The translations under genes and the position numbers were made by a program. Source: Meandrina meandrites (lineage: Eukaryota; Cnidaria; Anthozoa; Scleractinia; Meandrinidae). Taken from it: a stretch of DNA of 64,000 nt. The notes under the pieces are model-generated. The model saw only the letters and a program-made list of their open reading frames with translations. It did not search any database and had not been told where the DNA came from. Position 1 is the first letter of the stretch, and the number at the start of each line of letters is the position of its first letter. Below, piece by piece: positions 2,688-25,355 of the stretch. The DNA is taken from positions 47,934,444 through 47,998,443 of the forward strand of contig OY855905.1 of assembly GCA_963693305.1 (NCBI GenBank), given 5' to 3'.

Positions 2688-2925
2688 GGTTAATATGAGA
2701 GGCTTTGTGGAGGGAGAGTTGATTTCTCAAGCTGCGGATGCGGATTTATCCCGTCAATTAGATGCATTATCAACCGACTGCAGAGATGCTACCGATATCT
2801 CCATTACTTACTACACAACAGAAATACCTCATCAAACTGCAACAATTTGTAACCTAGAAGAGTTAACGAGCTTGTTTCGTCACTTCAGGTCAAACATTAA
2901 TAGTAGCCAAGAGATTCCTGTTGAG
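2688..2925 (+). CDS. Host gene 1, first recognised exon: SNTX/verrucotoxin-like segment
   Basis: Exon bounded by an acceptor-like tract (TTTCGTTTAG at about 2678-2687) and a GT donor at 2926. The open frame includes an ATG at 2695 (77 codons to the exon end). The exon probably starts mid-domain, so that ATG may not be the true start. Translation contains TEIPHQTATICNLEELTSLF and ends IPVEV, joining in frame to ELQPVG in the next exon. Short phrases of the type 'tfeeav.vY..LP......+Pv.V.LyPL' mark the end of the MACPF-like region of the stonustoxin/verrucotoxin (SNTX) family and its relatives, many of which are not venom toxins. A pore-forming role cannot be claimed: no membrane-insertion region is in the window. 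Confidence 0.6.
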
Positions 2926-3736
2926 GTATTGTTTCTTTATTTAATTGTAATCAGCAACGAGATTTTTTTAGGTTGCTAGTAAATTATAATTTGATTCAGA
3001 GGTTGTATAATTTAAAATAGCGTAACCCAGTGACCAACTATTAAGCAAAATTGCAATCTGATTGGCTACGCAAAGACGGGCTAATTTTCGAAAGACTGTC
3101 CTGGCATGGGAGCACAAGCAAGAAAAATCGCCGAAATCGCAACCCAAAAATATAAACAAACCACTTCCACTTAATTTTTTGCTGAAAAGGTCTTCCTCTG
3201 GGTTATGCTAAAACAATTAGATGGCTCTCTCTCGGTTTCTATCGATTTTTAATAGTTGACTCGGGTTACGCCCTGCGCCAAATATCATCCAATAGAAACT
3301 TCCAGCTTGCCGTCTAATTGTTAAATATGTATCTGGGAGGATAGGCAGGCGAATACGTTATTTGTATAATAACCATAACCTATCCCATGCTTCACATTCA
3401 TAGCTGGTTTCTCTCTGAGCTGGGTAAGCTAAACAGGGCGAGTGATTAACAGTTATGATTTCCAATAATAGTTTCGAAACGTCTTCATAAATTAACGATT
3501 TGAGTAAAACTATCAAAGGTAATAGCAAACTCCTTTTTCAAATATGGGAAATATCTTTATTTTTTTACATGTACGATAATATAACTAAACTAAAATATTT
3601 GTCATGTCGTTTCTGGTCACAAGTTAAGTTTGTTGGCCCCACTTAGATTCTTTTTCACTACCTAAAACAATCAGATAGAAAGTTAATTAACTATTAAATG
3701 GCGGATATCTTAGTTGTTTGTGTTTGTCATTTATAG
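2926..3736 (+). other. Host gene 1 intron
   Basis: GT at 2926 and TTTATAG at 3736 bound an 811-bp intron with phase 0 on both sides. It holds an inverted-repeat element (3018-3275) and otherwise AT-rich sequence. Confidence 0.6.
3018..3275. mobile_element. Inverted-repeat (MITE-like) element in intron
   Basis: AGCGTAACCCAGTGACCAAC followed by TATTAA at 3018-3043 pairs imperfectly with TTAATAGTTGACTCGGGTTA followed by CGCCC at 3250-3275. About 258 bp in all, non-coding. Confidence 0.55.
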
Positions 3737-4096
3737 GTAGAACTTCAGCCCGTGGGAGCTTTGATACGAACGGAGAGAGCATATTTACCAAACAGGGCGT
3801 TATCTAACGTATTAGAGGAGGTAGAGAGCCGTTTCGATGATCTTCGCAGCTCTCAATTTCTGCTGAAGAAATATCTGGAAACTGTAGTCGAGTTGGATGA
3901 AGACGAAAAGAGGTTTGACCACGAGCTAAAACAAGTTTCGCAAACCTTCACTGCTGCCATCTCAAAACTAAATGTGAGTGCTGAAGAAAACCAGTTTGAC
4001 GATTGCTTGATGGCTTACGGTGACGCCTTGGAGGGATATGACGAGGAAGGAAAGTTTGTTCAATTCTGGAAGAAACTACTGATGAAAAAGCAGAAG
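3737..4096 (+). CDS. Host gene 1, exon 2: helical SNTX-like linker
   Basis: A 360-bp exon (120 codons) between TTTATAG and GTAAGT, phase 0 at both ends. It opens with VELQPVG, the conserved end of the SNTX MACPF-like region. It then becomes strongly amphipathic and helical: VLEEVESRFDDL, LKKYLETVVELDEDEKRFDH, FVQFWKKLLMKK. This fits the helical (FAT-like) domain that follows the MACPF-like module in stonustoxin-family proteins. It could hold the GTPase domain away from upstream parts or mediate oligomerisation (inference). The donor at 4097 opens the intron that contains the Polinton. Confidence 0.65.
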
Positions 4097-4237
4097 GTAA
4101 GTTTTCTTTCTCTTCATTGTTATTGTAACATAAAAGTAAAGTTCATAACTTATAAAGGCGTTGGTATTTTGAATGACTCGTGAGATGGACGAGTGCCACT
4201 CACATGGCTTATCGATATCGGCCTTTTTAACTAATAA

Positions 4238-4408: not shown

Positions 4409-4988
4409 TTTCAACTAGGATGCTAAGTTAACTTGTCAAGTCAATAAATATTCCAATCAATCTCTTCCCCAATCCAACACACAGCTTTATAGCTGCTGAA
4501 ACAAGTAGAGCAACATAAGTTATGTTTCTTTACTCTTGTTTTGAGAAGTAAATGACACCAGTGCATGACACTTTACTTTAGATGTTAAGTTCATATGCAT
4601 GGCTACAGTAAGGCGTGTAGGTGATGGCCTGCACTAACGTTAGACAATACAAAGAATTAGTTTTCATTGCTTACTTCGTACACTTGGATTCCTTTTATTT
4701 GCCAACCCAAATGTGTGTCATGTATCGGCGGTTTTTGGCTACACACAATTTTTTTTTTTGCTAACAAAATATAGGTCCGTTATGCGTACCTGTAATTAGG
4801 GTAAATTATTGTTTAACGTGTTAAATTATTGTTTAACGTGTGAGGGAGAAACTAAGATTTTCAGTTCAAATTTTATTCTTAGAGACCTTATATTATGAAT
4901 TTCTGTAAAACACAAACGGACATTTTGTAGGTGGCCTCGGCCTGCGTTGTTGTTGGCGTTCTGAGTTCGCACAGAGCGTTGCCTAAAT
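4409..4988. other. Host intron sequence left of the Polinton
   Basis: AT-rich intronic DNA. The only structure is a direct repeat of ATTATTGTTTAACGTGT at about 4805-4840. No coding potential seen. Confidence 0.4.
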
Positions 4989-4993
4989 CCTAG
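4989..4993. other. Left target-site duplication CCTAG of the Polinton
   Basis: CCTAG immediately precedes the first TIR base. The same five bases follow the last TIR base at 21035-21039. A 5-6 bp duplication is expected for retroviral-type integrase insertion of Polintons. Confidence 0.85.
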
Positions 4994-5174
4994 AGTAGTA
5001 ATCTCGGGGGTTCACGAATACCGTTTTACGTGAGGGAAGTTTGTTTGCTTAAATTAAGCTCCCCACCACCAACAAAACCGCTCTCGGAAGCTCGCGCTTT
5101 TGTTGGTGGTGGGGAGCTTAATTTAAGCAAACACTCACGTAAAACGGTATTCGTGAACCCCCGAGATTACTACT
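4994..5174. repeat. Long hairpin-forming palindrome inside the left TIR
   Basis: The arm starting AGTAGTAATCTCGGGGG pairs with CCCCCGAGATTACTACT at 5158-5174. Pairing continues through GGTGGTGGGGAGCTTAATTT sequences almost to the centre. The arms differ by a 7-nt bulge (after CGTGAG at about 5035-5041). The tip is a GC-rich loop of about 20 nt around 5084-5103. The mirror copy is at 20854-21034. Confidence 0.92.
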
Positions 5175-5201
5175 TAAAAAAAGGGCCAAAGAAGAAAGGG
5201 G

Positions 5202-5238
5202 GGCAACCAATTAGAGAAAGGCAACCTCACATTATATA
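5202..5238 (+). promoter_or_regulatory. Early-type promoter motif 1 (in left TIR)
   Basis: GGCAACCAATTAGAGAA, a 12-nt spacer, then ATTATATA, six bases before the ATG at 5245. The same bipartite motif precedes the next genes and is copied in the right TIR upstream of PolB. Confidence 0.75.
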
Positions 5239-5244
5239 ATTCAA

Positions 5245-5574
5245 ATGGCAGACACGTTAAAACAAATACAAAAACTTCCACAAGAACTTCAAGAAAAAAT
5301 CTGCAAAGAGTTTATTAAAATAAAACTCAGGGAGAGAAAAGATCTCGGCTGGGAAGAGGTAAACGCAGCAATCGAAGAAGCCCCAGTGTGTAATCGCAAT
5401 GAACAAATTGTAAGGGTTTTGTTTTGTTATAAATGTAATGACATTTGTCCGCGGAATAATCTCTGTAATCTGTGCCACAAAAATGGACGCAAACACTATC
5501 TCGGTTATCCAATTTATGATGAAGATGATTACGATGAAGTCTTTAAGAAATCTTATTATTCGGCAACCAATTAG
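5245..5574 (+). CDS. Polinton early protein 1 with zinc ribbon
   Basis: A 109-aa protein starting just inside the TIR, six bases after the TATA-like part of motif 1; that position decides the start. The N-terminal LPQELQEKI segment loosely resembles the first helix of an F-box (weak, inference). The middle has CYKC and CNLC pairs about a dozen residues apart, a probable zinc ribbon. The C-terminus is acidic (DEDDYDEV). The stop codon TAG lies inside the AATTAG core of the next promoter motif, so coding sequence and promoter overlap. I do not recognise a family. Position and promoter suggest an early regulatory or host-interaction protein. Confidence 0.7.
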   Translation: MADTLKQIQKLPQELQEKICKEFIKIKLRERKDLGWEEVNAAIEEAPVCNRNEQIVRVLFCYKCNDICPRNNLCNLCHKNGRKHYLGYPIYDEDDYDEVFKKSYYSATN

Positions 5575-5597
5575 AGAAACAATCCTTACATTATATA
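5562..5597 (+). promoter_or_regulatory. Early-type promoter motif 2
   Basis: GGCAACCAATTAGAGAA, an 11-nt spacer, then ATTATATA, two bases before the ATG at 5600. The TAG of the upstream gene is within the motif. Confidence 0.75.
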
Positions 5598-5599
5598 CA

Positions 5600-5935
5600 A
5601 TGGAACTTGTGCTAAAAAAAGACCAGCTACCGCGTTTCCGATTCGAACAATTCCGCGCATGCGAGAAAAAATACCAGAAAGAAGAAGAAAAGAAGGTTTG
5701 CTGGAAGGATTTGTTCGCTCTTTGCGAGTTTGCCACTTCGTTGGAAGACAAATCGGCACACATTGTAGGCCATATCGACTCGGAGACAGCAGAAAAATGG
5801 TTGGACTGGAGTCTTGGAGAACTCTTTGTTGTTGCTGTCGATGGAGACTTTGCTTTCTGCTTCGAAGGTGGAACTATTGTTCCCGTTCCGAGTGCTACAC
5901 AAGAGCAACTCAGATCTTATTCAGCAACCAATTAG
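5600..5935 (+). CDS. Polinton early protein 2, unknown function
   Basis: A 111-aa protein. The frame is open from 5438, but the ATG at 5600 directly follows promoter motif 2 and is the likely start. The N-terminus is charged and helical (RACEKKYQKEEEKK), followed by a more hydrophobic region with GELFVVAVDGDFAF. No recognisable domain, signal peptide or membrane segment. It ends SATN-stop like the preceding gene, because the last codons and TAG are part of the next promoter motif. Small, variable early proteins at this end of Polintons are common and often lineage specific. Confidence 0.65.
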   Translation: MELVLKKDQLPRFRFEQFRACEKKYQKEEEKKVCWKDLFALCEFATSLEDKSAHIVGHIDSETAEKWLDWSLGELFVVAVDGDFAFCFEGGTIVPVPSATQEQLRSYSATN

Positions 5936-5959
5936 AGAATAACAGCCTCAGATTATATA
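5923..5959 (+). promoter_or_regulatory. Early-type promoter motif 3
   Basis: GCAACCAATTAGAGAA, a 12-nt spacer, then ATTATATA, about 30 bp before the ATG at 5991. The TAG stop of the preceding gene is embedded in it. Confidence 0.75.
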
Positions 5960-5990
5960 ATTAATTTTTAAAACCGTGGTTAAATAAGAA

Positions 5991-6333
5991 ATGCGACGAG
6001 GAAAAAACAACTGCGGGTGGTTAATGTTAAGTCGAAAAGAAACATGTGGGCGGGGGTGTATGGGAGAGTACTGCGCGTGGCACAACTATCAACTAAAAAC
6101 AGTGAAAAAAAACCAGCCCCATGTAAAAACTGCGGAAAAGGGGTAATGTGTGACTATCGTTTATGCATGGAATGTGGGGGTAGTAAACTAAAGCAAAAGC
6201 TAATCTACAAACACAAAAAAGCGAAGAAAAACTTCGAGCTGGTCTTGGTGGAGCTCAAGCACAAGCAATTAGAGAAGTGGCACCAAGGATTATATACAGC
6301 GATGGGAAGAGGAAGAAACAATGGTCCTGTTGA
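5991..6333 (+). pseudogene. Polinton small Cys-rich zinc-finger protein, frameshifted twice
   Basis: The ATG at 5991 follows motif 3. The first frame contains CGRGCMGEYCAWHNYQLK and stops at 6144. The homologous continuation is in the -1 frame after an A8 run (6105-6112), with CKNCGKG, then CDYRLCMEC. After an A6 run (6225-6230) a further -1 change gives a plausible C-terminus ending at the TGA at 6331-6333. Together these suggest one small protein with two Cys/His clusters, a layout I associate with short zinc-binding ORFs of invertebrate Polintons. Each break could be a one-base loss in a homopolymer, either a true mutation or an assembly error. The first site (A AAA AAA) would also permit programmed -1 slippage. 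The joined product is not written here. Confidence 0.55.
6266..6296 (+). promoter_or_regulatory. Early-type promoter motif 4
   Basis: CAATTAGAGAA, a 12-nt spacer, then ATTATATA, five bases before the ATG at 6302. It overlaps the 3' part of the broken zinc-finger gene. The upstream GGCAACC extension is not kept. Confidence 0.65.
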
Positions 6334-6529
6334 TCAAAGCACTAAAAAACCGAAAGTTACAAAAAACAAAGTAAGGGGCGATTTGCAAATGTTTCATCCA
6401 CACATAATAGAAGAAAATACAGAATTGCCAATACTTGTATCAGAAGACCTTCTTGCAGAAATGAAAAAAATGTGTCCGCAAGATTTAATGAATATTCTTT
6501 TGTCAAATCAATGTGAACAGGGTTATTAG
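6302..6529 (+). CDS. Polinton early protein 4, unknown function
   Basis: A 75-aa protein. Its frame is open from 6017, but the ATG at 6302 lies directly behind promoter motif 4, so the short form is preferred. The N-terminus is basic (MGRGRNNG, then STKKPKVTKNKVRGD). The C-terminal half is amphipathic and helical with two Cys (LLAEMKKMCPQDLMNILLSN). No family recognised. The 5' end overlaps the last bases of the broken zinc-finger gene in another frame. It is possible that the frame instead belongs to the zinc-finger protein; the motif spacing argues against that. Confidence 0.5.
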   Translation: MGRGRNNGPVDQSTKKPKVTKNKVRGDLQMFHPHIIEENTELPILVSEDLLAEMKKMCPQDLMNILLSNQCEQGY

Positions 6530-6543
6530 AAAGAAATGCCAAC

Positions 6544-6885
6544 ATGGAACAGTTGCGTGACATTTTTCTCAGAAAGACCGGAAACCAATATTTTTATTTC
6601 CCAGGCCCCTTGGACGAGCAGAATAACACAAAACATGGCGGTCGCCTCACGATTTAGTGTTTGGGCCGAAAAAATGCGAAACAGAACAGATATTACGAAA
6701 AAAATACGCTCAGTTAACGCGCTGTAAGTTTTTGTGCCCCCACAGAAGCTGGCGAAGTGAAGCGACGAGAAGAAATCGAGAAATAACAGGATTTGATCAC
6801 AGAAATTTTATCGAACTATCGAGCGATTTTTCTAGAACACGGACTCGTTCGAACCTGTTTATTTTTTTTCTGCCTCTCGCATAGC
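6544..6885 (+). pseudogene. Degenerate Polinton early gene
   Basis: The frame starting at the ATG at 6544 gives 37 codons with KTGNQYFYFPGPLDEQNN, then a stop at 6655. Protein-like sequence continues in the next frame (FGPKKCETEQILRKKYAQLT, up to about 6736). It then moves to a third frame after a C5 run (6737-6741), where an acidic helical stretch is itself interrupted by TAA near 6785. The pattern is one ancestral gene of about 110 codons broken by at least two indels and a stop. Function unknown. It is the last of the left-end cluster, before a non-coding gap. Confidence 0.5.
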
Positions 6886-7248
6886 CTCCACTACTTGATA
6901 TGTTATATGTCTGACCTCATTCTGCCAAACGGGTGTAGAAAGTTCGGTTAAAATAAAGCATATTGCATGGAAAAGGACAAGCATTTTATTTACAAACTTT
7001 ACCAAGTCTTTAAAAACGGATGCGTACGGACACAAATATCATTGTTCTTCAGCCAATCAAAAACGTCACATTTTACTTCACAATTGTGAAATGAAATTTT
7101 ATTTGTGAAATTATTTGTGAAATTATCAGTGAAGATGCCTTACTCCCAAAGCAGTAAAGTGTTTGTGAAAAAATAAAAGAATTTGCTATATTTTGGAACG
7201 GCAATCATTCTTTAATAAAGTGGAACAATGTTCTCTTAGACTGAAATT
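6886..7248. other. Non-coding gap inside the Polinton
   Basis: AT-rich, with a short direct repeat of TTTGTGAAATTA around 7100-7130. No gene on either strand. This is where the left-end plus-strand cluster meets the 3' end of the minus-strand 220-aa gene, so a bidirectional 3' end region is plausible. Confidence 0.4.
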
Positions 7249-7911
7249 TTACTTCGAAACGTCGACCGCGCTGCCAAGAAGCTTTTTTTGCATACGGATC
7301 CTTTCTTCGCGGATGGCCTCTTGTCTTATATTTTCAATGTCAGGGCTGCTCTGTTTGTCCTTGGGAAGCGTGCCTTTACGAAGAATTTCCTTCTGAATTC
7401 TATAGCTCTCTTTTTCATCAAGAATGCTTTGAAACTCAGAATCGCTTATTTTACCGTCAATAAGTGATTTTGACAGGATGCGGTTGACAGTATCGCATTT
7501 TGACAAAGCCAGTGTCATGATTTTGCAGTGTTTGATAAGTTTGGGCTCAAGCTTTTTGTAAAAACCGGTAAGCCCAGCAGCTGTAAGCCCAAATAAAGAG
7601 GCAACACAGCCAATTGGTATCGAGGCAGGAATCCCAATGCCTGTAAACGCAGCTGCTACGCCACCTGCGGATAGAAAACCAGAAATACCACCAGCAGAAA
7701 AGCCAGCGTAGTTGATAATGGTTTTAGTTCTTTTGTATTTTTTGGCAACAAGCCTATAATGTGAAACTTCGTCACTTAAATATTTTAAAACTTCATTTGC
7801 TTTCTGCATACGAAAATTGTTATCTGGCTGAGTTGGTAGAACTGGATAGAATGTTGTCTGAGTTTCTGTTTGTTCATAAGCTGGTGCAGTTGGTAACACG
7901 TTGGATGCCAT
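7249..7911 (-). CDS. Conserved Polinton protein with Gly/Ala-rich hydrophobic core
   Basis: A 220-aa protein. Residues 1-35 are Pro/Thr-rich and disordered. Residues 40-64 are basic and helical (YRLVAKKYKRTKTI). Residues 65-117 form a long Gly/Ala/Ile-rich hydrophobic stretch (GGISGFLSAGGVAAAFTGIG, then IPIGCVASLFGL), probably two membrane helices. The C-terminal half is soluble and helical (ISDSEFQSILDEKE...). From memory this layout recurs in Polintons of marine invertebrates, but I know of no assigned function. A role in the virion membrane or host-membrane interaction is inference. Its promoter region (7912-7940, reverse) is AT-rich with TTTGTAAATATA before the ATG. Confidence 0.65.
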   Translation of the reverse strand: MASNVLPTAPAYEQTETQTTFYPVLPTQPDNNFRMQKANEVLKYLSDEVSHYRLVAKKYKRTKTIINYAGFSAGGISGFLSAGGVAAAFTGIGIPASIPIGCVASLFGLTAAGLTGFYKKLEPKLIKHCKIMTLALSKCDTVNRILSKSLIDGKISDSEFQSILDEKESYRIQKEILRKGTLPKDKQSSPDIENIRQEAIREERIRMQKKLLGSAVDVSK

Positions 7912-7940
7912 TATGTATATTTACAAAATTATTTTTCTCT

Positions 7941-8618
7941 TTAATTTATTTCAATTTGAAACTGAAGAGGAAAGCCGTTAAAATCAAATAGATTATTATT
8001 TTGGTCCCTGACAGAAATTGTCATATTTGAGATATGCTTATCAGCAGAAACATCGCGTAAGACATGTTGTGGACCACTTTGATAAAAAACTTTATCAAAA
8101 GGTTTTCCTGTTATGTCAAAAGTTTGTAAAACAGTAGACGGTTTTCCATTTAACAGATTCTGTTCTTTGTCAACAAAATCGCAATGTATGAAATAGGTCG
8201 TGGGTGAGTTCATACGTTGGATATAATTTATCCAAGGTAAATCTTCTTGTTTAGTGCCAAGCAGTTCAGATAAGTTTTCATCAAATTTTATTTTATTATT
8301 TCTTGGATCCTCTATTTCTATAACCATCTGCCCTACAGGAGTATAGATTTGTGTTTTTAATATAACACCTAATGGTTTAAAAGCATTTTCAATTTTTTTT
8401 GCCATTTCTTCGATAGTGTAATTACCTGCAAAAAAAGTTGCATGTAATTCTTTTTTATTTTTACCAGTGTAGAAGATTTTACCTACTTTCTTTAAGTTAA
8501 ACCACGAATTGTAAAGAGAACAACTTAACAGACGGATATAGCTTGGTTTTTGAATAGGATAAGGTTCAAAATAGACTGTATGCGGATTTTCTTTTGTAAC
8601 AACAGTAAGAATAACCAT
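7941..8618 (-). CDS. Candidate penton/minor capsid protein
   Basis: A 225-aa protein predicted to be mostly beta: short hydrophobic strands separated by charged loops. Phrases include LLSCSLYNSWFNL near the N-terminus, SPTTYFIHCDFVD in the middle, and a conserved C-terminus reading MTISVRDQNNNLFDFNGFPL. Its size, beta-rich character and place in the virion gene block suggest the single jelly-roll minor capsid (penton) protein of Polintons. That assignment is inferred from context rather than a catalytic motif. It shares a 34-bp intergenic region with the divergent 588-aa gene, so the two are probably co-regulated late genes. Confidence 0.5.
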   Translation of the reverse strand: MVILTVVTKENPHTVYFEPYPIQKPSYIRLLSCSLYNSWFNLKKVGKIFYTGKNKKELHATFFAGNYTIEEMAKKIENAFKPLGVILKTQIYTPVGQMVIEIEDPRNNKIKFDENLSELLGTKQEDLPWINYIQRMNSPTTYFIHCDFVDKEQNLLNGKPSTVLQTFDITGKPFDKVFYQSGPQHVLRDVSADKHISNMTISVRDQNNNLFDFNGFPLQFQIEIN

Positions 8619-8652
8619 TTTTATAATTAGAGAAAAATATTTTGTTTAAATA
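8619..8652. promoter_or_regulatory. 34-bp divergent promoter
   Basis: The ATG of the 225-aa gene (minus, 8618) and of the 588-aa gene (plus, 8653) are only 34 bp apart. The spacer is almost pure A/T and contains TAATTAGAGAAAAATATTTT, which shares the AATTAGAGAA core of the early motif. Confidence 0.55.
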
Positions 8653-10419
8653 ATGGATGGTGAATGGACCGGTGGTGGTGGATGGTTGGATGTTTATTCG
8701 AAGAAGCAAAGAACCAAAAGTGCAGCGAAATCTGATACAGCAAAAGACAAGGCCCCTCAGCCATCACAGCACAGCAGCGCATCTGCGCTTTTAAAATGGA
8801 TTCAGACACCACAAGCTGTCACCATTGCCAAAAAGGCAGAACAGAAGGCATGGAATACTTTTCTTGCAAAATACCCTAAGGCTGATAAATCAAAGTTTGA
8901 GCCACAGACCAATTTCACCAAAGACCAGACAGCAACCTCAGAAATTTATTTCAAAGCAGGGCCAGGCCATTTGATAGACGTTTTAGGTTCAGACAGCAAA
9001 TATTGGAGCCCGGAAATGAAAAGTGCTCTGGGTGTTGACCAATCATCAGAAGGGTTTCCACAGCAACTTACACCAAGTGGATTAAAAGGAGACTCTTTGC
9101 CCATCCCTGCTGTTGGCTTTCACGATTCCGCCCAAAGTTTGAAAAAAATATTTAATGACCAACAGAATATTTACGTAACACCGGACCAGTATTTCACAAC
9201 AAAGTTCAGAGAGATATTTCAAAAAACCAAACTCACCCACCATTCAGGGAAAGAGTCCAAAACCTGGCTAGCCGGCCCAAATATCAAATACTGGCCGCAG
9301 CAGCTGAATTTTGCTGTCTGGTGCGCGACAACGGGCTGCGGCATCAGTCGTGAAATTTTCGAAGACAACTCTGCTATGCCACCGAATGTGCGAGCTTTTT
9401 ACAAGTTCCATATATATTTTACCGTCAGGCGAATATTGTACCAGATGGGGGGGATACAAAGCATGAGCGCTTTGCCTGGCGACCCTACTTTTAACCAGTT
9501 TAACAACAAGTATGACGTGGCTTCATACAAAAGAATATGCGCTGAGTTCGGAGTCGACCCGTCAAGCGATTTTCGTTACACATCAGGCGAAAACCACGGC
9601 CTGGGGAGCGTTTACATTTATGCCTCATACGTTGGACCAGTTAAATCGCCAACCAGTTACCCCGGTGGTTACAATAAATTTTCAGATGAAGGCGGTTCAG
9701 CCTCAAAAGGTAACTTGATTTATTATGTCGAGCCGGATGACGATGCCAACGGACAGGCAGACTGGTTTTGTCCCAATGTAGCAGAAGGTCTTACCCAGGC
9801 GGGTTTGTCTCGAATAAACCAGTCGATAGAGGCGTTCGTTTACTGTGTTCTGGGTTCACAGGTAAATGTAAGAAGTAGTATTCTTGGATCAGGAGGGCGC
9901 GCAAAGGAAGCGCAAAGTGAGTTCCTTGTGCTGGTTGAAGATGCTATAAGGCAACCGGATCTGGCAAAGTCAGTTCAAAGGTACCAACTTGCTGTAGATG
10001 AGGCAAAGGTGAGGCTTAACTTTGCTGTGTGTCCGGGGGCCTGGCTGATGCCTGCTCGAATGGTGATAAATATGGGAACTGTAACTGGTTACAACAACCA
10101 GCTCAAACAAGCTTTGCCAGGCATGAAGCTCGGGGTTAACAACGAAGTGAATACAAGCACAAAAAAAGCAGCGCTAAAGCTGATGGCAGGAGGTCCAACA
10201 AAGATAAACCCACCAAACAGCCACCCCTCAAACCCGATACACAAGGAAGCAACGCAAAAAAAGGGGCCCGCGACTTCGCCTGAAGATCAAACACCTGATG
10301 AGTCAATAACAAATGTAGGTGGAACTGGGGTGTGGGGTGAAACACACGAAAATAACAAAGTAGCTATTGCTATTGGTGCTGTCGGGGTTGCGGCTTTGAT
10401 TTACGCAGTTATGCGCTAA
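8653..10419 (+). CDS. Conserved Polinton structural candidate with C-terminal membrane anchor
   Basis: A 588-aa protein. The N-terminus is Gly-rich then basic (to about residue 35), followed by a long globular region. A highly protein-like central block includes SRINQSIEAFVYCVLGSQVN, then SEFLVLVEDAIRQPDLAKSV and CPGAWLMPARMV at about residues 390-475. A Pro/Lys/Thr-rich linker at about 505-560 leads to a C-terminal hydrophobic helix (VAIAIGAVGVAALIYAVMR). This organisation suggests a virion protein anchored in, or contacting, an internal membrane. Not an enzyme by visible motif. It is the second-largest open frame in the element, and similar proteins recur in cnidarian Polintons (recollection, not searched). 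Its stop codon overlaps that of the convergent gene by four bases. Confidence 0.7.
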   Translation: MDGEWTGGGGWLDVYSKKQRTKSAAKSDTAKDKAPQPSQHSSASALLKWIQTPQAVTIAKKAEQKAWNTFLAKYPKADKSKFEPQTNFTKDQTATSEIYFKAGPGHLIDVLGSDSKYWSPEMKSALGVDQSSEGFPQQLTPSGLKGDSLPIPAVGFHDSAQSLKKIFNDQQNIYVTPDQYFTTKFREIFQKTKLTHHSGKESKTWLAGPNIKYWPQQLNFAVWCATTGCGISREIFEDNSAMPPNVRAFYKFHIYFTVRRILYQMGGIQSMSALPGDPTFNQFNNKYDVASYKRICAEFGVDPSSDFRYTSGENHGLGSVYIYASYVGPVKSPTSYPGGYNKFSDEGGSASKGNLIYYVEPDDDANGQADWFCPNVAEGLTQAGLSRINQSIEAFVYCVLGSQVNVRSSILGSGGRAKEAQSEFLVLVEDAIRQPDLAKSVQRYQLAVDEAKVRLNFAVCPGAWLMPARMVINMGTVTGYNNQLKQALPGMKLGVNNEVNTSTKKAALKLMAGGPTKINPPNSHPSNPIHKEATQKKGPATSPEDQTPDESITNVGGTGVWGETHENNKVAIAIGAVGVAALIYAVMR

Positions 10420-11795
10420 CGCCGCTTCTTGATGTATTTTTCCACAAGAAAGGCAACCACAGCCAAAATAATCAGCCAGGTGTGCTCAGCAAGAAAACCG
10501 ATAGCTTGACCGGCGGCTTTGAAAAGAAAGCTCACAATTGAGCCAATTAAACCTGGCAGAATTGATGCAAGCTTAGAGCCAATATCTTTCAGACCTTTTC
10601 CCAACGCTTTACCGGTGGCTTTTAAAGCGTTTGTAATAGCCCAAACAACTGCACCAATTGTGACCCCGGCTGCAATAACGATAGCCGTACCGGTCACACC
10701 ATATTTTTTAAATATCTCCTTTACCCGCTCACGAAGCGGAAGCCCTCTTTCTCTTTCATCAATCTGCGTTTGCAAACGAGCAAGCTCCTCTTGTCTTTCC
10801 GCCACTCTTCCTTCAGCGGCTTGTTTATCAGAAGGTGAGGCATTTTCATCATCTATAACTGCCTGATCTTCCTCATTTTGTCGCTGCAGTTCTGCTTCTT
10901 GTTCTTTCAGCTCATCTAAAGTTCTTGTGTCGTTGAGCCTCGCTTCCATTGTGTTTCTTTCGCTCTCTTTGGCGGCCAGGCTTGCCCTGCTTTGGTCGAT
11001 CTTTTTTAGTACTTTTTCCTTCTGCTTCGCTTGTTTTTCAAGGGCAGTAACTTCTTTTTTAGCATTTTCAAGATCGGTTTGAATGTTTTTCAACAGTTGC
11101 CGTTGCTCCCGCAATTCTGCTTCATTTTCAACGCTTGACCCAAGTTGTTCAATTCTAGCTAGAGTTCGTTCTTTTTTGTTTCTCAAATTTTGAACTTCTT
11201 GGGCGGCTTTTTCTTTTTCAAAATTTATTTTTTCGGCTTCTTTACGTTGTTTTTCAGCTTCTCTTAATCTTTGGCGTTCATTTCTTATTTCTTCCTTGTC
11301 TTGAGCAATCAGAGATTCAGCATCTGGACCAAGGGATGATTTGAACTTGTCTGTAAATTTTTTGTAAAGACCTTTCCCATCTTTTCTGAAAATTTCAGTC
11401 TCAGCCTTTTTTCCAAATGAAACGATTGTGGTATCATTGCCAGGCTTTTTGCTGAAACCGATTGGGTCCATTTTTCCGAAGTCAACTCTTGGAAACCTCT
11501 TTTTAATAAATTCTCTTGCTCTTTCAAGAAGAGCTGGTTTATCATCTTGATGAACAAAGCCACCCAACAAAGGTATATCTTCATCAAATGATGTTTCTGC
11601 CAATCCGCTCTTTTCTTTCTGAAACATTTGCAGTTCAATTTGTTCACCATAGCGTGTGGATTCAGCGTCAGGATCAAATGGCTTAGTTGTGTCGATCTCA
11701 GTATCAAGATCAAAATCATATTTATCATCATCTTTATTGTTAAGTTCTTTGTCAAGTTCTGGTTGGTCCATACCAAATTCGCCACCTTCTGCCAT
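10416..11795 (-). CDS. Coiled-coil, C-terminally membrane-anchored Polinton protein
   Basis: A 459-aa protein. Residues 1-60 are acidic (DNKDDDKYDFDLDTE type). Residues about 160-355 are an almost uninterrupted Glu/Lys/Gln/Arg coiled coil (EEIRNERQRLREAEKQRKEA and similar). The last ~95 residues hold two or three hydrophobic helices (TAIVIAAGVTIGAVVWAI; ILPGLIGSIVSFLF; LAEHTWLIILAVVAFLVEKY) and end KKRR. A rod projecting from a membrane is the obvious reading; a role in virion assembly, attachment or membrane remodelling is inference. The gene is convergent with the 588-aa gene and divergent from the capsid gene, with an 87-bp AT-rich intergenic region. Confidence 0.68.
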   Translation of the reverse strand: MAEGGEFGMDQPELDKELNNKDDDKYDFDLDTEIDTTKPFDPDAESTRYGEQIELQMFQKEKSGLAETSFDEDIPLLGGFVHQDDKPALLERAREFIKKRFPRVDFGKMDPIGFSKKPGNDTTIVSFGKKAETEIFRKDGKGLYKKFTDKFKSSLGPDAESLIAQDKEEIRNERQRLREAEKQRKEAEKINFEKEKAAQEVQNLRNKKERTLARIEQLGSSVENEAELREQRQLLKNIQTDLENAKKEVTALEKQAKQKEKVLKKIDQSRASLAAKESERNTMEARLNDTRTLDELKEQEAELQRQNEEDQAVIDDENASPSDKQAAEGRVAERQEELARLQTQIDERERGLPLRERVKEIFKKYGVTGTAIVIAAGVTIGAVVWAITNALKATGKALGKGLKDIGSKLASILPGLIGSIVSFLFKAAGQAIGFLAEHTWLIILAVVAFLVEKYIKKRR

Positions 11796-13136: not shown

Positions 13137-13141
13137 TAGAA

Positions 13142-15956: not shown

Positions 15957-16952
15957 ATGGATGCCAAACTCGCAAAGACATACTATAGTCCTGGGGGCTA
16001 CTGGAAAGGTTTTGCTGCGATAAAAAAATTATCCGATGCTGCCAAGGTACCAGAAGAAACCGCAAAAAAGTGGCTGTTCAAGCAAGCACTCTGGCAGATA
16101 TTCCTCCCAGCACCGAAGCGCATTCCTCGGCCGAAATTCGATGTACCTTTACCCAACAAAGTGCACCAGGCTGATCTTCTTTTTTTGCCACATGACAAAC
16201 TACCCCGCGGGCGCAAAGTTTTTAAATATGCACTCACAGTTGTTGATGTTGCCAGCCGATTCAAAGAAGCTGAACCCTTGACCTCTAAAAACTCTGATGA
16301 AGTTGCCCTTGCTTTTAAGAGAATTTACAAACGCTCACCTCTGAAATGGCCTGAACTGTTGCAGGTTGATCCTGGGCGTGAATTCATGGGCGCTGTTACA
16401 AAAGAAATGGAAAATCACAAAACATTTATTCGGCGTGGGCGAGTTGACATTCACCGTGATCAGGCCATTGTTGAACGTTTCAACCGCACCCTGGCTGAGC
16501 GCTTGTTCGGGCACCAGTACGCAGTTGAAATGCGAATGCCTGAGGGACAGCGGTCCACTGCGTGGGTAAAAAGGCTTCCTGAAGTTCTGGCCGCTCTAAA
16601 CAACGAAGTAACAAGACTTATCGGCAAGAAACCTGTAGTTGCCATCAAAGAAAAGGCTGTTACTTCCAAGCCATCGACACCTTATTTGAGGCCTGTTGGG
16701 GAAAGGGAAAAAAAGCTCACCTCTATTTATAATGTTAGGTATTTATACCAACCTGGCGAGCTTGAAGGTGGTGTGAAAAGAGCCACTGATCCAATCTGGT
16801 CTTTGAAAGTTTACAACATTGAACGTTCTTTTACCAAACCGAATCAGCCCGTTCTCTACTATTTACACGACGGGCCCAAACGCGGCTTTGTGCGTGAAGA
16901 ACTACTCGTTGTACCTCCAAACACCACCCTTCCTCCGACTAACGTTAACTAA
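15957..16952 (+). CDS. INT: Polinton retroviral-type integrase
   Basis: A 331-aa protein of the rve superfamily. The catalytic triad is visible: D73 in HQADLLFLP, D138 in LQVDPGREFMG and E173 in QAIVERFNRTLAERLF (34 residues between D138 and E173). A helical N-terminal region precedes the core. The C-terminal ~90 residues (RYLYQPGELEGG...GFVREELLVVP) resemble the SH3-like DNA-binding domain. No chromodomain is evident. It joins the element ends to target DNA, which accounts for the 5-bp CCTAG duplication. The frame is fully open and all catalytic residues are present. It lies tail to tail with PolB: the integrase stop at 16950-16952 overlaps the PolB end. Confidence 0.93.
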   Translation: MDAKLAKTYYSPGGYWKGFAAIKKLSDAAKVPEETAKKWLFKQALWQIFLPAPKRIPRPKFDVPLPNKVHQADLLFLPHDKLPRGRKVFKYALTVVDVASRFKEAEPLTSKNSDEVALAFKRIYKRSPLKWPELLQVDPGREFMGAVTKEMENHKTFIRRGRVDIHRDQAIVERFNRTLAERLFGHQYAVEMRMPEGQRSTAWVKRLPEVLAALNNEVTRLIGKKPVVAIKEKAVTSKPSTPYLRPVGEREKKLTSIYNVRYLYQPGELEGGVKRATDPIWSLKVYNIERSFTKPNQPVLYYLHDGPKRGFVREELLVVPPNTTLPPTNVN

Positions 16953-18566
16953 ATGTGATATTCAATTGGTTCGGTGTGTATCCCGTCGGGCAGCACCCAC
17001 CGTTTGTCATAATAGGCGCTCAACCCCAGCTTCTCCTGCTCGTATGTTACCAATTTCCCTTTCCGCATCCGGAACCCTCTGTTTGTTGCCATATCCTTGT
17101 TCCCTTCCATCGCTGCCTTGAAACGGTGCCAGGTTATATCGTTTTGCTTCTTCGACATTCCTTTTGTGCTGAACTTCTTTTTGTCCCCCCGGTTATCTAT
17201 GAAATAGCATTTGGAGCAGAGCGCTATCATCCGTTCCCCCTCGCACTCCTTCTTAAACAGACCTGGCGTTCTACCACTCCACTTGTCCCATGCCAACCAA
17301 TTCTTTTTTTGGGCCTCGAATTCTGCTTTCAGCTCTGGCCTCACTATGTCTTCGAGTTTCTTTCCTGAGATGGCGAGGTAGTTGCTGTCTGTGTCCATCT
17401 GTATCAGCTCGAAATCTTTTCTGTCAAAGTACCTGTCCAGAAAGTCGTAATAAAATTCCAGCATCCGCAGCTTTGCCAGCTGATAGACTGCGATTCCGAT
17501 CTGGAATGGGCGTCTGATTGTGATTCGTGGTTTTCGACTTTCTAACTCGTACGCCTCCCCTATCTCATCCAGATCTGAGAAATATGCGCTTCGCAAGGCT
17601 CTGTCGACTACCTTCTCATCTTTGGTGTATATCACGTTTGTTTGCCGCTCCAAGGCTTCTATTAGCTTCCCGTACCCACTGTTTCCCAAAAGTTTGAACA
17701 CCTCCGCCAGCAGTGCTTTGCTTTTTTCTACGTCTCCTGTCCGGCGTGCCTCCGTGACTTGTTCCACGAACCAGGGAAAGATTTTTGCTGGTGTGTAGTC
17801 TATTGTCCGATAAACCTTTGTTATTTCTGCTCCATGATTCACATACCAGAGCAACAGAGGTGCGTATAGTAGTATCTTCTGTGCTGACAAAGCTCCTATG
17901 AGTTTCTTATCTTCTCCGCGTTTTCTTCCTGTTTCCCGCAAGTATTTGATCATATGCTCGGGGACAGCTTTTGCTGGCACCACTTTGTTATAGAAGAACG
18001 GACACATTTCCTCAAACTTCGCATGTAAGTGCTTCGGAATCTCTATGTCTACTTCTGCATACCCGAACCAGCTTCCTTCTTTGAGACTTTGTGTTAGTAT
18101 AAAGGGCGCTGTCAAGTCTTCATAGTAGTGTTCAACCCTTTCCTTTCCACAAGGCATTTCTCTTAGCATGGTTGATAGATACAGGGCGTTGGCGTCGTAT
18201 CCGAGGATGTTTTTGTTTTTGTTCTGCTATTTGATGCGGCCTTATTCTTGTTTTACCTACTTCGTGGTATCTTCTGAAAACGAGGCTCGGCCCTCCAACA
18301 ACTGCGGCTTTTAACATTTCGTATGCTTCTTTGCTTGGGGCGTATAGATCCGCGCCGCGCTCAATTGCTCCCCTTAGCAAGTAATGTAAACTCACACCTG
18401 GAATACTGACCGCGTCTTTCATTATGTCGATTCCCTTCCCTGTGTAGAAGTTTTTCATTTTTTGTAGTGCCTGAAGTCCTGGCGCCACATCCAGATTGTT
18501 GTAGTAACGCAACCATTCTTTGAAGGTTTTCATTTCCTTTTCTCGAAACAGCTTTTTGCACTGTTT

Positions 18567-18569
18567 TCA
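18567..18569 (-). other. In-frame TGA in PolB
   Basis: Homologous-looking sequence (KQCKKLFREKEMKTF) continues in the same frame after TGA. A single CGA to TGA change would explain it, possibly by deamination. Confidence 0.8.
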
Positions 18570-19559
18570 TTCCGACAGTTGTAGCCCGAAGTCTCCTTTC
18601 AACTTTGAATACCAATCCGGGTAATCCGGCAATCCTGCGTAATCCAGCTTTTCTGGTCTGTCAAACCACTCGTATGGGAACCACGATTTCTCTGCCTTGC
18701 ACTCGTAGACTTTCACCCATTTTTCGTAGCTTGTTCCTGGACCGAGGTAGTTGATTATGTCTAGAAAACGCGAGCCTGAAGTTAGCAAGAACATTATTTT
18801 GTTTCCGTTCTTTGCTACTCTGACTTTGTTGGTTACGCCTGTAAGCCGCTTTGCGAAATAGTTTTTGATCAGATTTAGATCATATGTACCTGAGTTAAAC
18901 CCTAGTACTGGGACCTGGTCACACCATTCTTCTATTTTTTTCTTCTGGTCCCTGGGTAGCAGGTCCATGTCTGCTGGCATATACTCCTCTCTTACTTTTT
19001 TTCTGATGTTTTCTCCGCGCCTCTCCAGCTCTTCCATAAACTTGCGGATCAGCTGTGCGGGTTCTCTTTCACAGATGTGGGTTGGGTCTCTTAAAAGAGT
19101 GTCACCGATGCTTACTGAGATTGGTACGTGCTCGTTCTCGATTGTTAAGTTGTCTGTCGGATTTTTTCGCTTGTTTTTGTCTCCGTACGCCTCGAAATCG
19201 TACAAGATCGCATGTGGATAACTTTTTGTTTGGGTTTCTGGTAGCTGTTCAAAGCTTTCCCCAACTTCGCAGGCCCAACACTCTATTACCGTGTAGCCGG
19301 CCTTTCGTAGATAAGCTGTTCGCCTCTTTGTTGCTATGTAAAGATCTTCTCTTGTTTTGTCACCACGGTCAATTATTTTGTCACGATCATGGTAACATAT
19401 TGGACATCCGTGCCAGTAGCATCCGTGGTATTGAAACACTATCTTTCTCTCATGGTTGTAGCCATCAACTGGTCTGTTCTCTATCCATCGCTCTCCTCCA
19501 TGCCCCGACATTGCATGGTGAATGGTGATGTTCCAATTCTTTGCTACATACTCTAGCCA

Positions 19560-19562
19560 CTA
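19560..19562 (-). other. In-frame TAG in PolB
   Basis: The frame from 20750 continues without shift into the exonuclease part (WLEYVAKNW directly after the stop). This separates the N-terminal 396-codon block from the exonuclease domain. Confidence 0.85.
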
Positions 19563-20625
19563 AATTGATTCATTCGATGCGTTATGTTTTGGGTAAAATG
19601 CTTTCTCATATGCTGTCTGCGGTGCTTCCACCTTTTTTCCTGGGCAATCTATTACCGTTTTCCCTTTCGCGCACCTTTCTGCGTGACGTTGAAGATGTTC
19701 TGCTCGTGTAAATCTTGCGTGGCAATGAATGCATTCATAAAGTTTTGCCAACTTTGTTATGTCTTTTATTAAAAATGCGTGCTCTCCATAAATTCCTATT
19801 GTCATGATGTTTTTTAACTTTGTCGCCGGATTTCTTACTTGATGCCATACAACTTCTTTTTCATCTACACGCTCTGGTATATATACCCTGATTCCTTGCC
19901 AATCTGAGAAAGCAACGCCCTTATTCAGGTGCATTTCTACCTTTTCTAATTCATCTAGTGATGTTTTTGCACAGTTTATCGGCGTATTTCTGAGATTGTA
20001 GAAACTCTTGGCTAGACTTTGTGCTGCTTTTGTGCTTCTATCCGCCCTTGCTCCTCTGTGCACAGCAATGCAACGCCATAGACATAAGTTATCATTATAG
20101 GTATCTAGTGCCACCATTGCATGATTCCCACGCGCAAGGTTGCGCAACCAGTGTGGTAAAGGTCCTGTTCCTATCAGGGGTTGTCGATCTTTCACAACCT
20201 TTAAATCAACTTGCGCGTGACCTACAAATACCCACCTTGTGTCTGGTCTTTCTTTATTATCTGTATCCAAACGGATTTCTTCCCTCTCTTGCAACCATTT
20301 CTCCGCTTCTTCTAGCTTTTTTATCCATGGGGAGCCGATGTTTTTGTAGTAGATTATTATGGTGCCGTCTTCTATGTTTTGCAACTTATACGCATAAATG
20401 TGCCTTGCATAAAAGGATGTTCTCACGTTCTTTTTTATTTTTTCCATTAATTTTGGTGTGATGTTTCCATTTAGGTTTTCAAAGAAGTTCCATAGGATGT
20501 AACGCCGCCCTTTTTTCTCTTTTCCGTCAATTTTTTTGCTCTCGTACAGATTTATTGTTTTTTTCTGGTATTCTTCCAAAGTTAAAGCTTTACCTTTTGG
20601 TTTTTCTGGGGGCTCTGCTTGCATT

Positions 20626-20750
20626 TTAGCAAGTTCTTCTTCCAATGCTTGCAACTCTGCTGGGTCCATTTTTGCAAGTTCTTCTTCCAATGCTTGCAAC
20701 TCTGCTGGGTCCATTTTTGCAAGTTCTTCTTCCCATGCTTTGAAGTCCAT
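20626..20750 (-). repeat. 45-bp tandem repeat at the PolB N-terminus
   Basis: Two and a half copies of a 45-bp unit encoding EEELAKMDPAELQAL start a few codons after the initiator ATG. An in-frame coding minisatellite, forming a charged helical leader. Confidence 0.9.
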
Positions 20751-20788
20751 TTTATATTATAATTGAAAAATATTTTTTGAAAATTGAT

Positions 20789-21034
20789 TTATATAATGTG
20801 AGGTTGCCTTTCTCTAATTGGTTGCCCCCCTTTCTTCTTTGGCCCTTTTTTTAAGTAGTAATCTCGGGGGTTCACGAATACCGTTTTACGTGAGTGTTTG
20901 CTTAAATTAAGCTCCCCACCACCAACAAAAGCGCGAGCTTCCGAGAGCGGTTTTGTTGGTGGTGGGGAGCTTAATTTAAGCAAACAAACTTCCCTCACGT
21001 AAAACGGTATTCGTGAACCCCCGAGATTACTACT
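20789..21034 (-). repeat. Right terminal inverted repeat, 246 bp
   Basis: Exact reverse complement of 4994-5239, including the 181-bp internal palindrome (20854-21034) and the inward promoter motif. Confidence 0.97.
20790..20826 (-). promoter_or_regulatory. Early-type promoter motif 5 (in right TIR, drives PolB)
   Basis: Exact mirror of motif 1. It reads inward on the minus strand, with its TATA-like part about 39 bp before the PolB ATG (20750). Confidence 0.75.
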
Positions 21035-21039
21035 CCTAG
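21035..21039. other. Right target-site duplication CCTAG
   Basis: Copies the five bases at 4989-4993. Removing 4994-21039 restores a continuous host intron. Confidence 0.85.
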
Positions 21040-21492: not shown

Positions 21493-21522
21493 CTGACCAC
21501 GTCAGACAGCCCGAATATCCAG
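21493..21522 (+). CDS. Host gene 1, 30-bp mini-exon
   Basis: Between TTTTTTGCAG and GTGAGA lies a 30-bp open segment encoding LTTSDSPNIQ, phase 0 on both sides. It joins exon 2 (ending MKKQK) to the GTPase exon (starting LPRGKDL). Both splice signals are good and the phase matches exactly, but such a short exon needs transcript support. It makes a flexible Ser/Thr hinge in front of the GTPase. Confidence 0.55.
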
Positions 21523-22649: not shown

Positions 22650-23231
22650 CTTCCACGAGGAAAAGATCTCACCATTGTTGTTACTGGAAAACCTGGAAGT
22701 GGAAAAAGTGCAACTGCGAACAGCATAGTTGGAGGACAAATTTTCACAACAAGTGCAGGTTCAACGTCCGTATCTACACAATTTCAGCGCGGGACAAGAA
22801 CAGATGAAAGAAAAATCACGGTATTAGACACTCCTGGATTTCTAGAAACAGATGTAGCAAAGGAGGTCCCTAGGATTCTTAAATGGGCACCCCATGGATT
22901 CGACGCCATCATCCTTGTAGCGAAGTACGGTTCCAGATTCAACGTTGAGGATGCACAGGCGCTGCAACAGCTTCGAAAATTCTTAGGCGAAGAAGGTGAT
23001 AAATACATCATTTTACTTCTCACCTATGGTGACCAGGCAGAGCATGAGGCAAAGGAAGATAAAATATCAGTCTCCTATGATGCATGCGTGGACCTTTGGT
23101 TAGGAACGTTGCCAAACTGGGTTCAAACGTTCATTAACCAGATAGAGGGTAGAGTTGTTTTGTTCAATAACAGGCTGAAATCAGACCGACATCCCGAGGC
23201 TTATAAAAAGCAGCTATCTGAACTAATCAAG
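22650..23231 (+). CDS. Host gene 1, AIG1/GIMAP-type GTPase exon
   Basis: A 582-bp exon (194 codons), phase 0 at both ends. G1/P-loop GKPGSGKS at residues 13-20, G3 DTPG at 60-63, the AIG1 conserved box LVAKYGSRFNVEDAQAL at about 89-105, and a G4-like LTYGDQA at 124-130. The C-terminal part has LGTLPNWVQTFINQIEGR and VVLFNN. These are features of the AIG1/GIMAP (TRAFAC) family: septin-like GTPases that dimerise or polymerise, often on membranes, and are linked to immunity in vertebrates, plants and molluscs/corals. Compared with its paralogue (54750-55391) it lacks about 20 residues just after DTPG, the switch II region, so hydrolysis or partner binding may differ. Downstream it is spliced to a HINT domain, an unusual partner. 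Confidence 0.85.
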
Positions 23232-24446
23232 GTAAGCAACTTACGGGGAATCATTTAGCAGAGCACTGTTTCCTGGTTTGGGAGGCCTTTAGGTTCCAAG
23301 CATATCACTTTATATATATATATTTTTAGCACAGTACCTCCTAACTACAAAGATCTTTTGCGCGGTTCATGACTATGCGAGAAAAGCAGTTCTTAGCAAG
23401 GCTATTTGAACTCAAAAGCCACGCATTTCTCAGAGAGAGATATTTAAGAGTTATTTTGTAACAAAACTGCTGACTCGGCATTGTTTAAGAAAACGAAAAA
23501 CATGCTTCTTCACAGACTTCCTTGGAATTTGCCTTCACATACACAGAAGTAAACCTTAGTAAAAAAAACGTTTAAAATACATCACAAATAGTAACATATC
23601 AACTACTGTTTGTATGATTTTAATTCCAAAATCATCGCAGCGGCGTCATTTTCGTCCATGACACCTCTCCTCTAGGATGTCAAAACTACAGTCTGGATAA
23701 AGTTGACGCAAAACCAAACAATTATCAGTGGTTTGACCGGCTTACCACGTCCATTTTATAAGATAAAAGTTGAGGACACCACGCGTTTTTACAAGTTACA
23801 CGAGTTCTTTTCAAGTATAATGGAATCTCCTATGGGGTCTGTTACAAATTTCCGATCCCCTCCCTAGTGAGTTAAATGTTTGCGTCTCGCGCAATTTCTC
23901 ACACGTGCACTACGCCATCTGTAGTTAGCAGTTTGCGGTTTAATTTCGAGCGATTTGCGGCTTGTGAATCATTTTTTGCGGTTAGTGGTAACTGATATTC
24001 TGCTCTTCTGGTGTCCCTGGTCTGGTATATCTTAATAAACACGATTTGGTCGCAATAGACAATTTTTTTTTACATTAAATCAGTCGCGCGTCTGGTCGTG
24101 TAGTTGAATGCGTAATTTTTGAGAGAGCAAATTTCTCTATTCATTGCGTGATGCACAGAGCATAAGCGCAGTAACAAAAGGAGGCACCGTCCTTAAACAA
24201 GGTCAATTTTTTCGGAAGCTAAAGCAACGAAACTCTCAGGAACTTGAGAAAGAGAAAATTTTATTATTCAGGTATTTTTTATTAAGGTAGCTGCTTCTTA
24301 TAGTTGGAATAACTGAACAATGGTGTTTTGCCACTAACCCTGTGTAGCGTAGCAGAGTGTAGTCCGTCCAGCGGATTTGTGTTAAAAAGTCTAATTCAAT
24401 GTTAGCTAGTTTTAGAATAAATTGTTTCTGTTTTTCTGCTTCTCAG
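23232..24446 (+). other. Host gene 1 intron before the HINT exon
   Basis: A 1,215-bp intron, GTAAGC to TGCTTCTCAG. It includes a short TATATATATATA run near 23310. No embedded gene seen. Confidence 0.5.
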
Positions 24447-25355
24447 TTGATAGACGGCATTACCCAAAAAGTACCTCCATACCCACAAACCAAGGAAGAC
24501 AAGGAAAATCTTAAAGAGAAGATTGACGAAGTGGTGAATGTCGCAGTTGCAAGAAGAGACCAGGAACTAGAAAGAAGAAAACAAACGTCGGGTGCGCTGG
24601 CATCTCAGAAAGTTATCCCACAAGGAGACACGATAACACAACGAAAACCAACCATCAAGAGTGATGCCCCAGAAGAGGGGTGGCTGATTGTACCTATAGA
24701 CGAAACAAAAGATGTCGAAACGAGTGCTGACGAGAAATCTTGGGGTGAGATAGTCTGGGACGCATTTGGCGGTTGTTTCCCTGCATCAGCCATCTTTATT
24801 GATACGCACGGACAACGAAGAAGAATGGACTCTTTGAGGATCGGTGATGAAGTCCAAGTCATCAGGAACAATGAAATTCATCTTGATACCGTATTCTCTT
24901 TCATTCACCGTCAACCAGAGGTTGTGCAAGATTTCCTCAAAATCACAACCACGAAAAGCAAAATCCTAAAGATTACTAAAGACCATCTGCTGTTTGTGCA
25001 GAAGGTTGGTCAAGCAAAAGCCATTCCTGCCAGAGATTTGAAAGTCGGAGACACTGTGTACGTGAGAGTAAATCACAGTGTAAAGAAAGATGCAGTTCAG
25101 AGCATCAGCACTGTCTATGAGAAAGGTGTTTACGCTCCAGTGACCCTCAGTGGCACCATTCTGGTCAACGATGTGCACACCTCGTGTTACTTTGATGTGC
25201 TATCTCATGAGTGGTCCCACAGGGCTATGAGTGTTGCTCGCGCCGTGCATTATGTGTCCCCATGGATGCTGCAGTGGATCAGTGGCGTTGGACAGAAGGA
25301 TGGACTCCCAGGCTGGTGCAGACTGGCTCATAAGATGCTCACCTTGGCGAACTGA
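24447..25355 (+). CDS. Host gene 1, terminal exon: Hedgehog-type HINT (Hog-like) domain
   Basis: A 909-bp exon (302 aa plus stop). Residues 1-100 are a charged helical linker. The HINT domain starts at GGCFPASAIF (nucleophile C110, codon 24774-24776). The T..H block is ITKDHLLFV (T177, H180) and the second essential Cys is in HTSCYFDV (C247). The tail HEWSHRAM...VHYVSPWMLQWIS...GWCRLAHKML resembles the end of the Hedgehog Hog domain, including its sterol-recognition-like region. Such domains make an internal thioester at the Cys and split the protein there, attaching a nucleophile to the N-terminal part. At the position of Hedgehog's cholesterol-activating Asp (FLDRDPE type) this protein has H154 (FIHRQPE), so sterol transfer is doubtful while self-cleavage remains plausible. 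Cleavage would free the GTPase part. Family assignment strong; function is inference. Confidence 0.85.
   Translation: MIDGITQKVPPYPQTKEDKENLKEKIDEVVNVAVARRDQELERRKQTSGALASQKVIPQGDTITQRKPTIKSDAPEEGWLIVPIDETKDVETSADEKSWGEIVWDAFGGCFPASAIFIDTHGQRRRMDSLRIGDEVQVIRNNEIHLDTVFSFIHRQPEVVQDFLKITTTKSKILKITKDHLLFVQKVGQAKAIPARDLKVGDTVYVRVNHSVKKDAVQSISTVYEKGVYAPVTLSGTILVNDVHTSCYFDVLSHEWSHRAMSVARAVHYVSPWMLQWISGVGQKDGLPGWCRLAHKMLTLAN

Follow-up and report, generated by a model that had tools for sequence, protein, structure and literature searches.

A 64,000-nucleotide stretch of the genome of the stony coral Meandrina meandrites (assembly GCA_963693305.1, contig OY855905.1, positions 47,934,444 to 47,998,443 of the forward strand; hereafter the window, whose own positions serve as coordinates) raises the question of whether one gene joins a stonustoxin (SNTX)-like segment, a GTPase of the AIG1/GIMAP type and a Hedgehog-type Hint domain, and of what such a protein would do. 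A preliminary description had proposed this architecture for 2688 to 25355 and read it as an autoprocessed, possibly membrane-targeted GTPase; we confirm the former and find the latter partly supported. The gene consists of five exon candidates on the + strand (copy A), and a second GTPase and Hint pair (copy B) lies on the − strand.

Exons and gene model of copy A

The exon candidates of copy A share a single frame, and all introns between them are phase 0.

2688–2925, + strand: exon 1, second half of the SNTX-type MACPF domain; acceptor TTTCGTTTAG, donor GTATTG; aligned to residues 1–76 of the relative P0002
3737–4096, + strand: exon 2, helical domain after the SNTX-type MACPF; acceptor TTTATAG, donor GTAAGT; 49% to P0002 over 144 residues, E = 2.6e-32
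21493–21522, + strand: small exon candidate, 30 bases, predicted to encode LTTSDSPNIQ; TTTTTTGCAG / GTGAGA, phase 0 on both sides
22650–23231, + strand: GTPase exon, AIG1/GIMAP, with P-loop GKPGSGKS and DTPG in its translation; Pfam AIG1 score 113.7 bits (cut-off 27; E = 1e-32); nearest structure in a PDB sequence search GIMAP4 (3lxx, E = 3.4e-17)
24447–25355, + strand: last exon, linker (residues 1–109), Hint (110–250), predicted SRR-like helices (254–300), stop; Pfam Hint score 150.1 bits (cut-off 29.7; E = 8.7e-44); nearest structure in the same kind of search a Hedgehog protein (6td6, E = 4.4e-14)

The GTPase and Hint exons carry proper splice signals. The preliminary description lacked the 30-base candidate at 21493–21522, and a 16-kb Polinton-like element in the central intron had gone unmentioned. 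The small candidate is in frame and would link exon 2 to the GTPase exon, at the position of a short pre-GTPase linker in relatives (ATNVE-LP, TTNIK-LP). Exon 1 may be the first coding exon, with a possible start at ATG 2695, because the first Met of P0002 occupies the same alignment column; six other aligned relatives have Ile or Phe there.

That the SNTX-like segment, the GIMAP GTPase and the Hog-type Hint domain belong to one gene is supported because relatives carry all three parts in one protein. The closest full-length relative, P0002 (656 residues), carries the N-terminal segment together with AIG1 and Hint in a single frame on a 3,296-base contig (tag lgn), where all parts are intronless and transcript-like; the same span takes 22.7 kb in the window. 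Chance pairing of neighbouring genes was considered and ruled out by these relatives and by the second AIG1 and Hint pair on the − strand, which makes it very unlikely.

The GTPase and Hint domains

The exon products of copy A show no C-terminal transmembrane anchor, their 19-residue Kyte-Doolittle means peaking at 0.95, and by simple hydropathy no hydrophobic N-terminus indicative of a signal peptide follows ATG 2695 (the N-terminal 40 residues reach 0.11). The 19-residue maximum across eight relatives is 1.48. Among vertebrate GIMAPs, GIMAP1, 3 and 5 are described as having a C-terminal transmembrane segment, which is not required of all members, for example GIMAP4 (PMC8201404). P0002 has EVPC where the DTPG motif of the GTPase sits and may be a pseudo-GTPase; copy A keeps DTPG.

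The Hint fold is kept in copy A, and the Pfam match spans 11–205 of the 213 profile positions. Residue 110 of the last exon, already named as the catalytic Cys, is indeed Cys1 and follows Gly in the motif GGCF; TKDH (TxxH) and TSCY (the late Cys) are also present. The Asp general base of Hedgehog (Asp46/Asp303) is absent, with His154 in its place. In an alignment of 126 Hint rows, gathered by likeness to the Hint domain of copy A or its relatives, this place is His in 124 and Gln in 2, while Cys1, Thr and the TxxH His are kept in most rows. The predicted structure shows three helices within residues 254–300 of the exon (block pLDDT 78–90), an SRR-like tail for which sterol binding is putative. 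The Foldseek and VIA lists for the 836-residue model are dominated by the GTPase part and may under-report other folds.

The N-terminal segment

The claim of an SNTX-like N-terminal segment stands in part. The 199-residue product of exons 1 and 2 resembles the start of coral AIG1-Hint proteins (53% over 198 residues of P0002, E = 5.6e-59), the full-length form of the segment in relatives matches stonustoxin, and the full domain in this family has the SNTX-type MACPF fold. The Pfam profile for that domain (PF24674) scores above cut-off in three of four relatives scanned together (P0124, P0127, P0132). In another scan it falls below cut-off in P0010 and is not listed for P0011, P0014, P0007 or P0002, and exons 1 and 2 of copy A give no match to it. 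Copy A begins at about residue 151–160 of the aligned full-length relatives. A tblastn search of the window with residues 1–155 of six relatives returned a single unconvincing match (E = 0.12) for the first MACPF half, whose exon may lie upstream of window base 1. A relic resembling exon 1 marks a further, third copy:

32613–32811, − strand: exon-1-like relic with disrupted frame; P0007 residues 15–68, 48%, E = 2.4e-8

A second copy in inverted orientation

Copy B lies 25 kb from copy A in inverted orientation; no SNTX-like exon was found for it within the window.

54750–55391, − strand: copy B GTPase exon (AIG1); 45% identity to copy A, E = 3.4e-58; AIG1 E = 9.9e-35, 120.2 bits
50336–51277, − strand: copy B linker and Hint exon; 79% identity to copy A over 196 columns; Hint E = 3.7e-42

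The two copies differ in how far their exons have diverged. In the GTPase exons synonymous sites are saturated (576 bases; nonsynonymous divergence, dN, 0.36; synonymous divergence, dS, not computable). In the Hint cores (24768–25352 and 50339–50923) the first 300 bases give dN 0.19 and dS 0.95 and the last 285 bases dN 0.04 and dS 0.14. This fall in synonymous divergence along the exon fits gene conversion of its last half between the inverted copies; together with purifying selection in the rest, conversion would be the simplest reading.

Relatives and known systems

To survey relatives, the joined GTPase and Hint exons of copy A were used as a query, with scoring limited to the 7,999 best candidates, giving 208 proteins (120 among the matches listed); two further searches with relatives as query gave 12 proteins and 211 proteins (120 among the matches listed). 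The fetched set of 237 proteins contains both Hint exons of the window itself (P0001, P0030) and was seeded with the AIG1-Hint family, so its architecture counts say nothing about frequency. Within it, N-terminal segment, AIG1 and Hint occur in that order in 20 proteins (five being isoforms from a single Acropora palmata gene), with Oculina, Stylophora, Acropora and Montipora as named hosts; AIG1 and Hint without the segment occur in 10, two of them amphioxus, and the segment alone in 2. In an AIG1 tree of 42 hand-chosen rows, the 16 rows labelled coral cluster together (100/99). Both amphioxus AIG1-Hint rows branch outside this cluster and the snail rows lie nearer to the coral rows than they do, at a weak fork (80/40) that is therefore compatible with one or several AIG1-Hint fusion events. 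P0130, from a spider record (Caerostris extrusa), is similar to the N-terminal segment of the coral proteins (29% identity, E = 5.1e-36) and may reflect a wider MACPF family or contamination. Four further proteins (P0025, P0027, P0031, P0133) have a longest contig of 1,124,625 bases, equal in length to that of P0001, and are probably further Hint and AIG1 copies on that contig.

The pairing of GTPase and Hint in corals is already published: four Acropora millepora transcripts with AIG1 and a C-terminal Pfam Hint were reported in 2013 (PMC3723955), and section 9 of that paper, which treats them, infers protein splicing and names neither an N-terminal SNTX/MACPF part nor an active-site analysis. 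Added here are the SNTX-like third part, an active site that appears intact apart from a single residue exchange, and an intronic Polinton-like transposon. Neither the MACPF_SNTX addition nor the His base was found for AIG1-Hint proteins in the open-access literature searched.

AIG1-Hint proteins have also been reported from a snail (Biomphalaria, PMC7053062), from amphioxus with a CARD (PMC12373286, 2025) and from a fungus (GmGIN1, PMC2362128). In the snail and fungal proteins an AIG1-type GTPase likewise precedes Hint/Hog; the passages describing them report no signal peptide for either and, unlike the coral case, mention no SNTX-like part. The amphioxus proteins (P0172, P0181) form a multigene family with AIG1 followed by Hint, and both have Cys1 and His at the Asp46 place. 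They differ from copy A in having Ser at the Thr place and Thr at the late-Cys place, P0172 has an N-terminal CARD (Pfam PF00619), and no MACPF_SNTX is listed. According to the amphioxus paper, no other animals have its CARD and HINT architectures; for AIG1 with Hint as such, the reports from coral and snail contradict this.

Compared with the Hedgehog C-terminal autoprocessing domain (1AT0; D46H mutant 6TYY), copy A shares the fold, Cys1, TxxH and the late Cys, has a predicted helical SRR-like tail, and differs in its cargo (AIG1 instead of the Hedge signalling domain), in showing no signal peptide and in having His for Asp46. Stonustoxin has C-terminal domains of its own after its MACPF_SNTX and helical part. 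Full-length relatives of copy A share those two domains with stonustoxin (4WVM), whereas in copy A the first MACPF half was not found within the window, AIG1 and Hint follow the helical domain, and nothing suggests a venom protein.

Proposed processing and alternatives

We consider it probable that copy A belongs to a coral multigene family whose Hint domain acts as in Hedgehog, the likeliest product being a GTPase with a C-terminal sterol, behind an SNTX-like part that appears truncated in copy A. The proposal of an autoprocessed, membrane-targeted GTPase is plausible because copy A retains the fold and the active-site residues, has a predicted SRR-like helical tail and shows no transmembrane segment. 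A full-length family member would run from the MACPF_SNTX domain through the helical domain, AIG1/GIMAP GTPase and charged linker to Hint and the SRR-like helices. We infer that copy A is transcribed and that, in its product, Cys110 of the last exon would attack the preceding Gly109 (GG/C) to form a thioester, which a nucleophile, probably a sterol hydroxyl, would resolve with the help of His154 and the C-terminal tail. The SNTX-like and GTPase part would then be released with a C-terminal sterol and bind a membrane, the sterol standing in for the transmembrane tail of some vertebrate GIMAPs. As no signal peptide or transmembrane segment is seen and hydropathy is low, the protein should be cytosolic, and cleavage would occur on that side of the membrane. 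His154, standing where Hedgehog has Asp, would act in the sterol step and may relax the choice of sterol, and the SNTX-like part may be a membrane- or partner-binding module. An immune role is suggested by membership of the GIMAP family and by Acropora GIMAP genes reported to respond to immune challenge (PMC7563517; PMC3723955); the three genes of that Acropora experiment are described as not the Hint-bearing ones (PMC3723955).

If the Hint domain is active, corals would make sterol-anchored GTPases of an immune type by self-catalysis, Hedgehog-type sterol attachment would extend from secreted morphogens to intracellular proteins, and the family would let the engineered exchange of Asp for His be examined in nature. 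A single intracellular protein would moreover combine a stonefish-toxin-type MACPF domain with a GIMAP GTPase.

Several observations weigh against this reading. The N-terminal exons of copy A (2688–2925, 3737–4096) pass no Pfam cut-off, apart or joined, and encode a partial MACPF domain with its helical domain, the first MACPF half not being found in the window. Cys1 is missing in 8 of the 126 Hint rows (7 gaps, 1 Arg), counts that are biased by how the rows were gathered, and is a gap in 7 of the 30 AIG1 and Hint proteins, 5 of the 7 being isoforms of one gene; judged by sequence, such members or gene models would be inactive. N-terminal segment and AIG1 occur without Hint in 4 of the 237 fetched proteins (P0123, P0124, P0128, P0129). 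Hedgehog is processed in the secretory pathway (PMC9163320), and cytosolic processing by a Hog-type domain is a proposal here.

One of the Hint-less proteins, P0129, ends in CTIL exactly where Hint would start and may be a gene-model artefact. We take this ending to resemble a prenylation box, and a lipid anchor gained in such a different way would agree with the proposed anchoring.

The leading alternative to sterol attachment, which we regard as possible, is that Hint cleaves but water or a small thiol resolves the thioester, so that Hint would serve as a maturation switch releasing the GTPase without a lipid. The residues needed for the first step (Cys1, Thr, TxxH His) are those kept in most rows, and Hedgehog D303A is reported to permit thiol-mediated cleavage still (PMC9163320). 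Against such release stand the predicted three-helix SRR-like tail and the near-complete Pfam Hint match, and exchange of Asp for His (D46H; 10.1021/jacs.9b08914) is reported to keep activity and sterol transfer in the Drosophila domain (reviewed in PMC9163320, PMC8529194).

A bolder extension of the sterol reading seems unlikely to us: intracellular pore-domain GTPases (MACPF_SNTX-AIG1) might attach sterol to themselves through a His-base Hint tuned to sterols wider than cholesterol, for example from algal symbionts, the anchored GTPase then marking or attacking microbe-containing membranes by a transferase-free cytosolic lipidation. The wider sterol choice is argued by analogy with the engineered D46H enzyme, which takes a wider sterol set.

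Also unlikely is a degenerate, inactive Hint domain, retained for structural reasons or through gene conversion. The drop in dS over the final 285 bases of the core fits such conversion, and some relatives lack Cys1; set beside this are the retained fold and active-site residues of copy A. It is quite improbable that two neighbouring genes are present, with the Polinton-like element separating an SNTX-like fragment gene on its left from an AIG1-Hint gene on its right. The 17-kb intron is mostly transposon, copy B shows no N-terminal segment within the window and the 10 AIG1-Hint proteins noted above lack it, whereas P0002 and 19 further relatives carry all three parts together and the phase-0 small exon candidate bridges both sides. 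Intein-like protein splicing, implied by the 2013 coral paper (PMC3723955) and in keeping with the fold common to Hint and inteins, has almost no probability and is ruled out by the lack of a C-terminal extein.

The Polinton-like element and other features of the window

The intron that follows exon 2 and precedes the small exon candidate holds a Polinton/Maverick-like element that makes up 16 kb of the claimed gene and overlaps the splice sites of neither exon.

4994–21034, no strand assigned: Polinton/Maverick-like element; 252-base inverted repeats, 100% complementary
4988–4993, no strand assigned: TCCTAG beside the left repeat, probably one copy of a target-site duplication
21034–21039, no strand assigned: right copy of the probable duplication TCCTAG, whose first T may be the last base of the repeat

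The element contains an A32-type ATPase match above the Pfam cut-off (E = 3.9e-8), an rve integrase core match below it (E = 2.5e-6) and a weak match to a DNA polymerase of unstated type (E = 4e-4). No capsid protein was named in it by Pfam (ten frames) or PHROGs (five frames). The identity of the 252-base repeats suggests a recent insertion, and this copy may be non-autonomous, as the presumed polymerase region is scattered over several reading frames. The element is an intron passenger in an immune-type gene; the complete inverted repeats and target duplication rule it out as a part of the gene.

Elsewhere in the window, tandem repeats at 44983–45492 hold frames open on both strands (NNKSRVKQEPRSAHGRAV) and are probably non-coding. 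Upstream of exon 1, a reading frame at 310–1233 (− strand) has weak Baculo_FP matches and is presumably LINE ORF1-like. The segment at 35724–36191 (− strand) encodes a reverse-transcriptase zinc-binding domain (zf-RVT, E = 6.6e-11).

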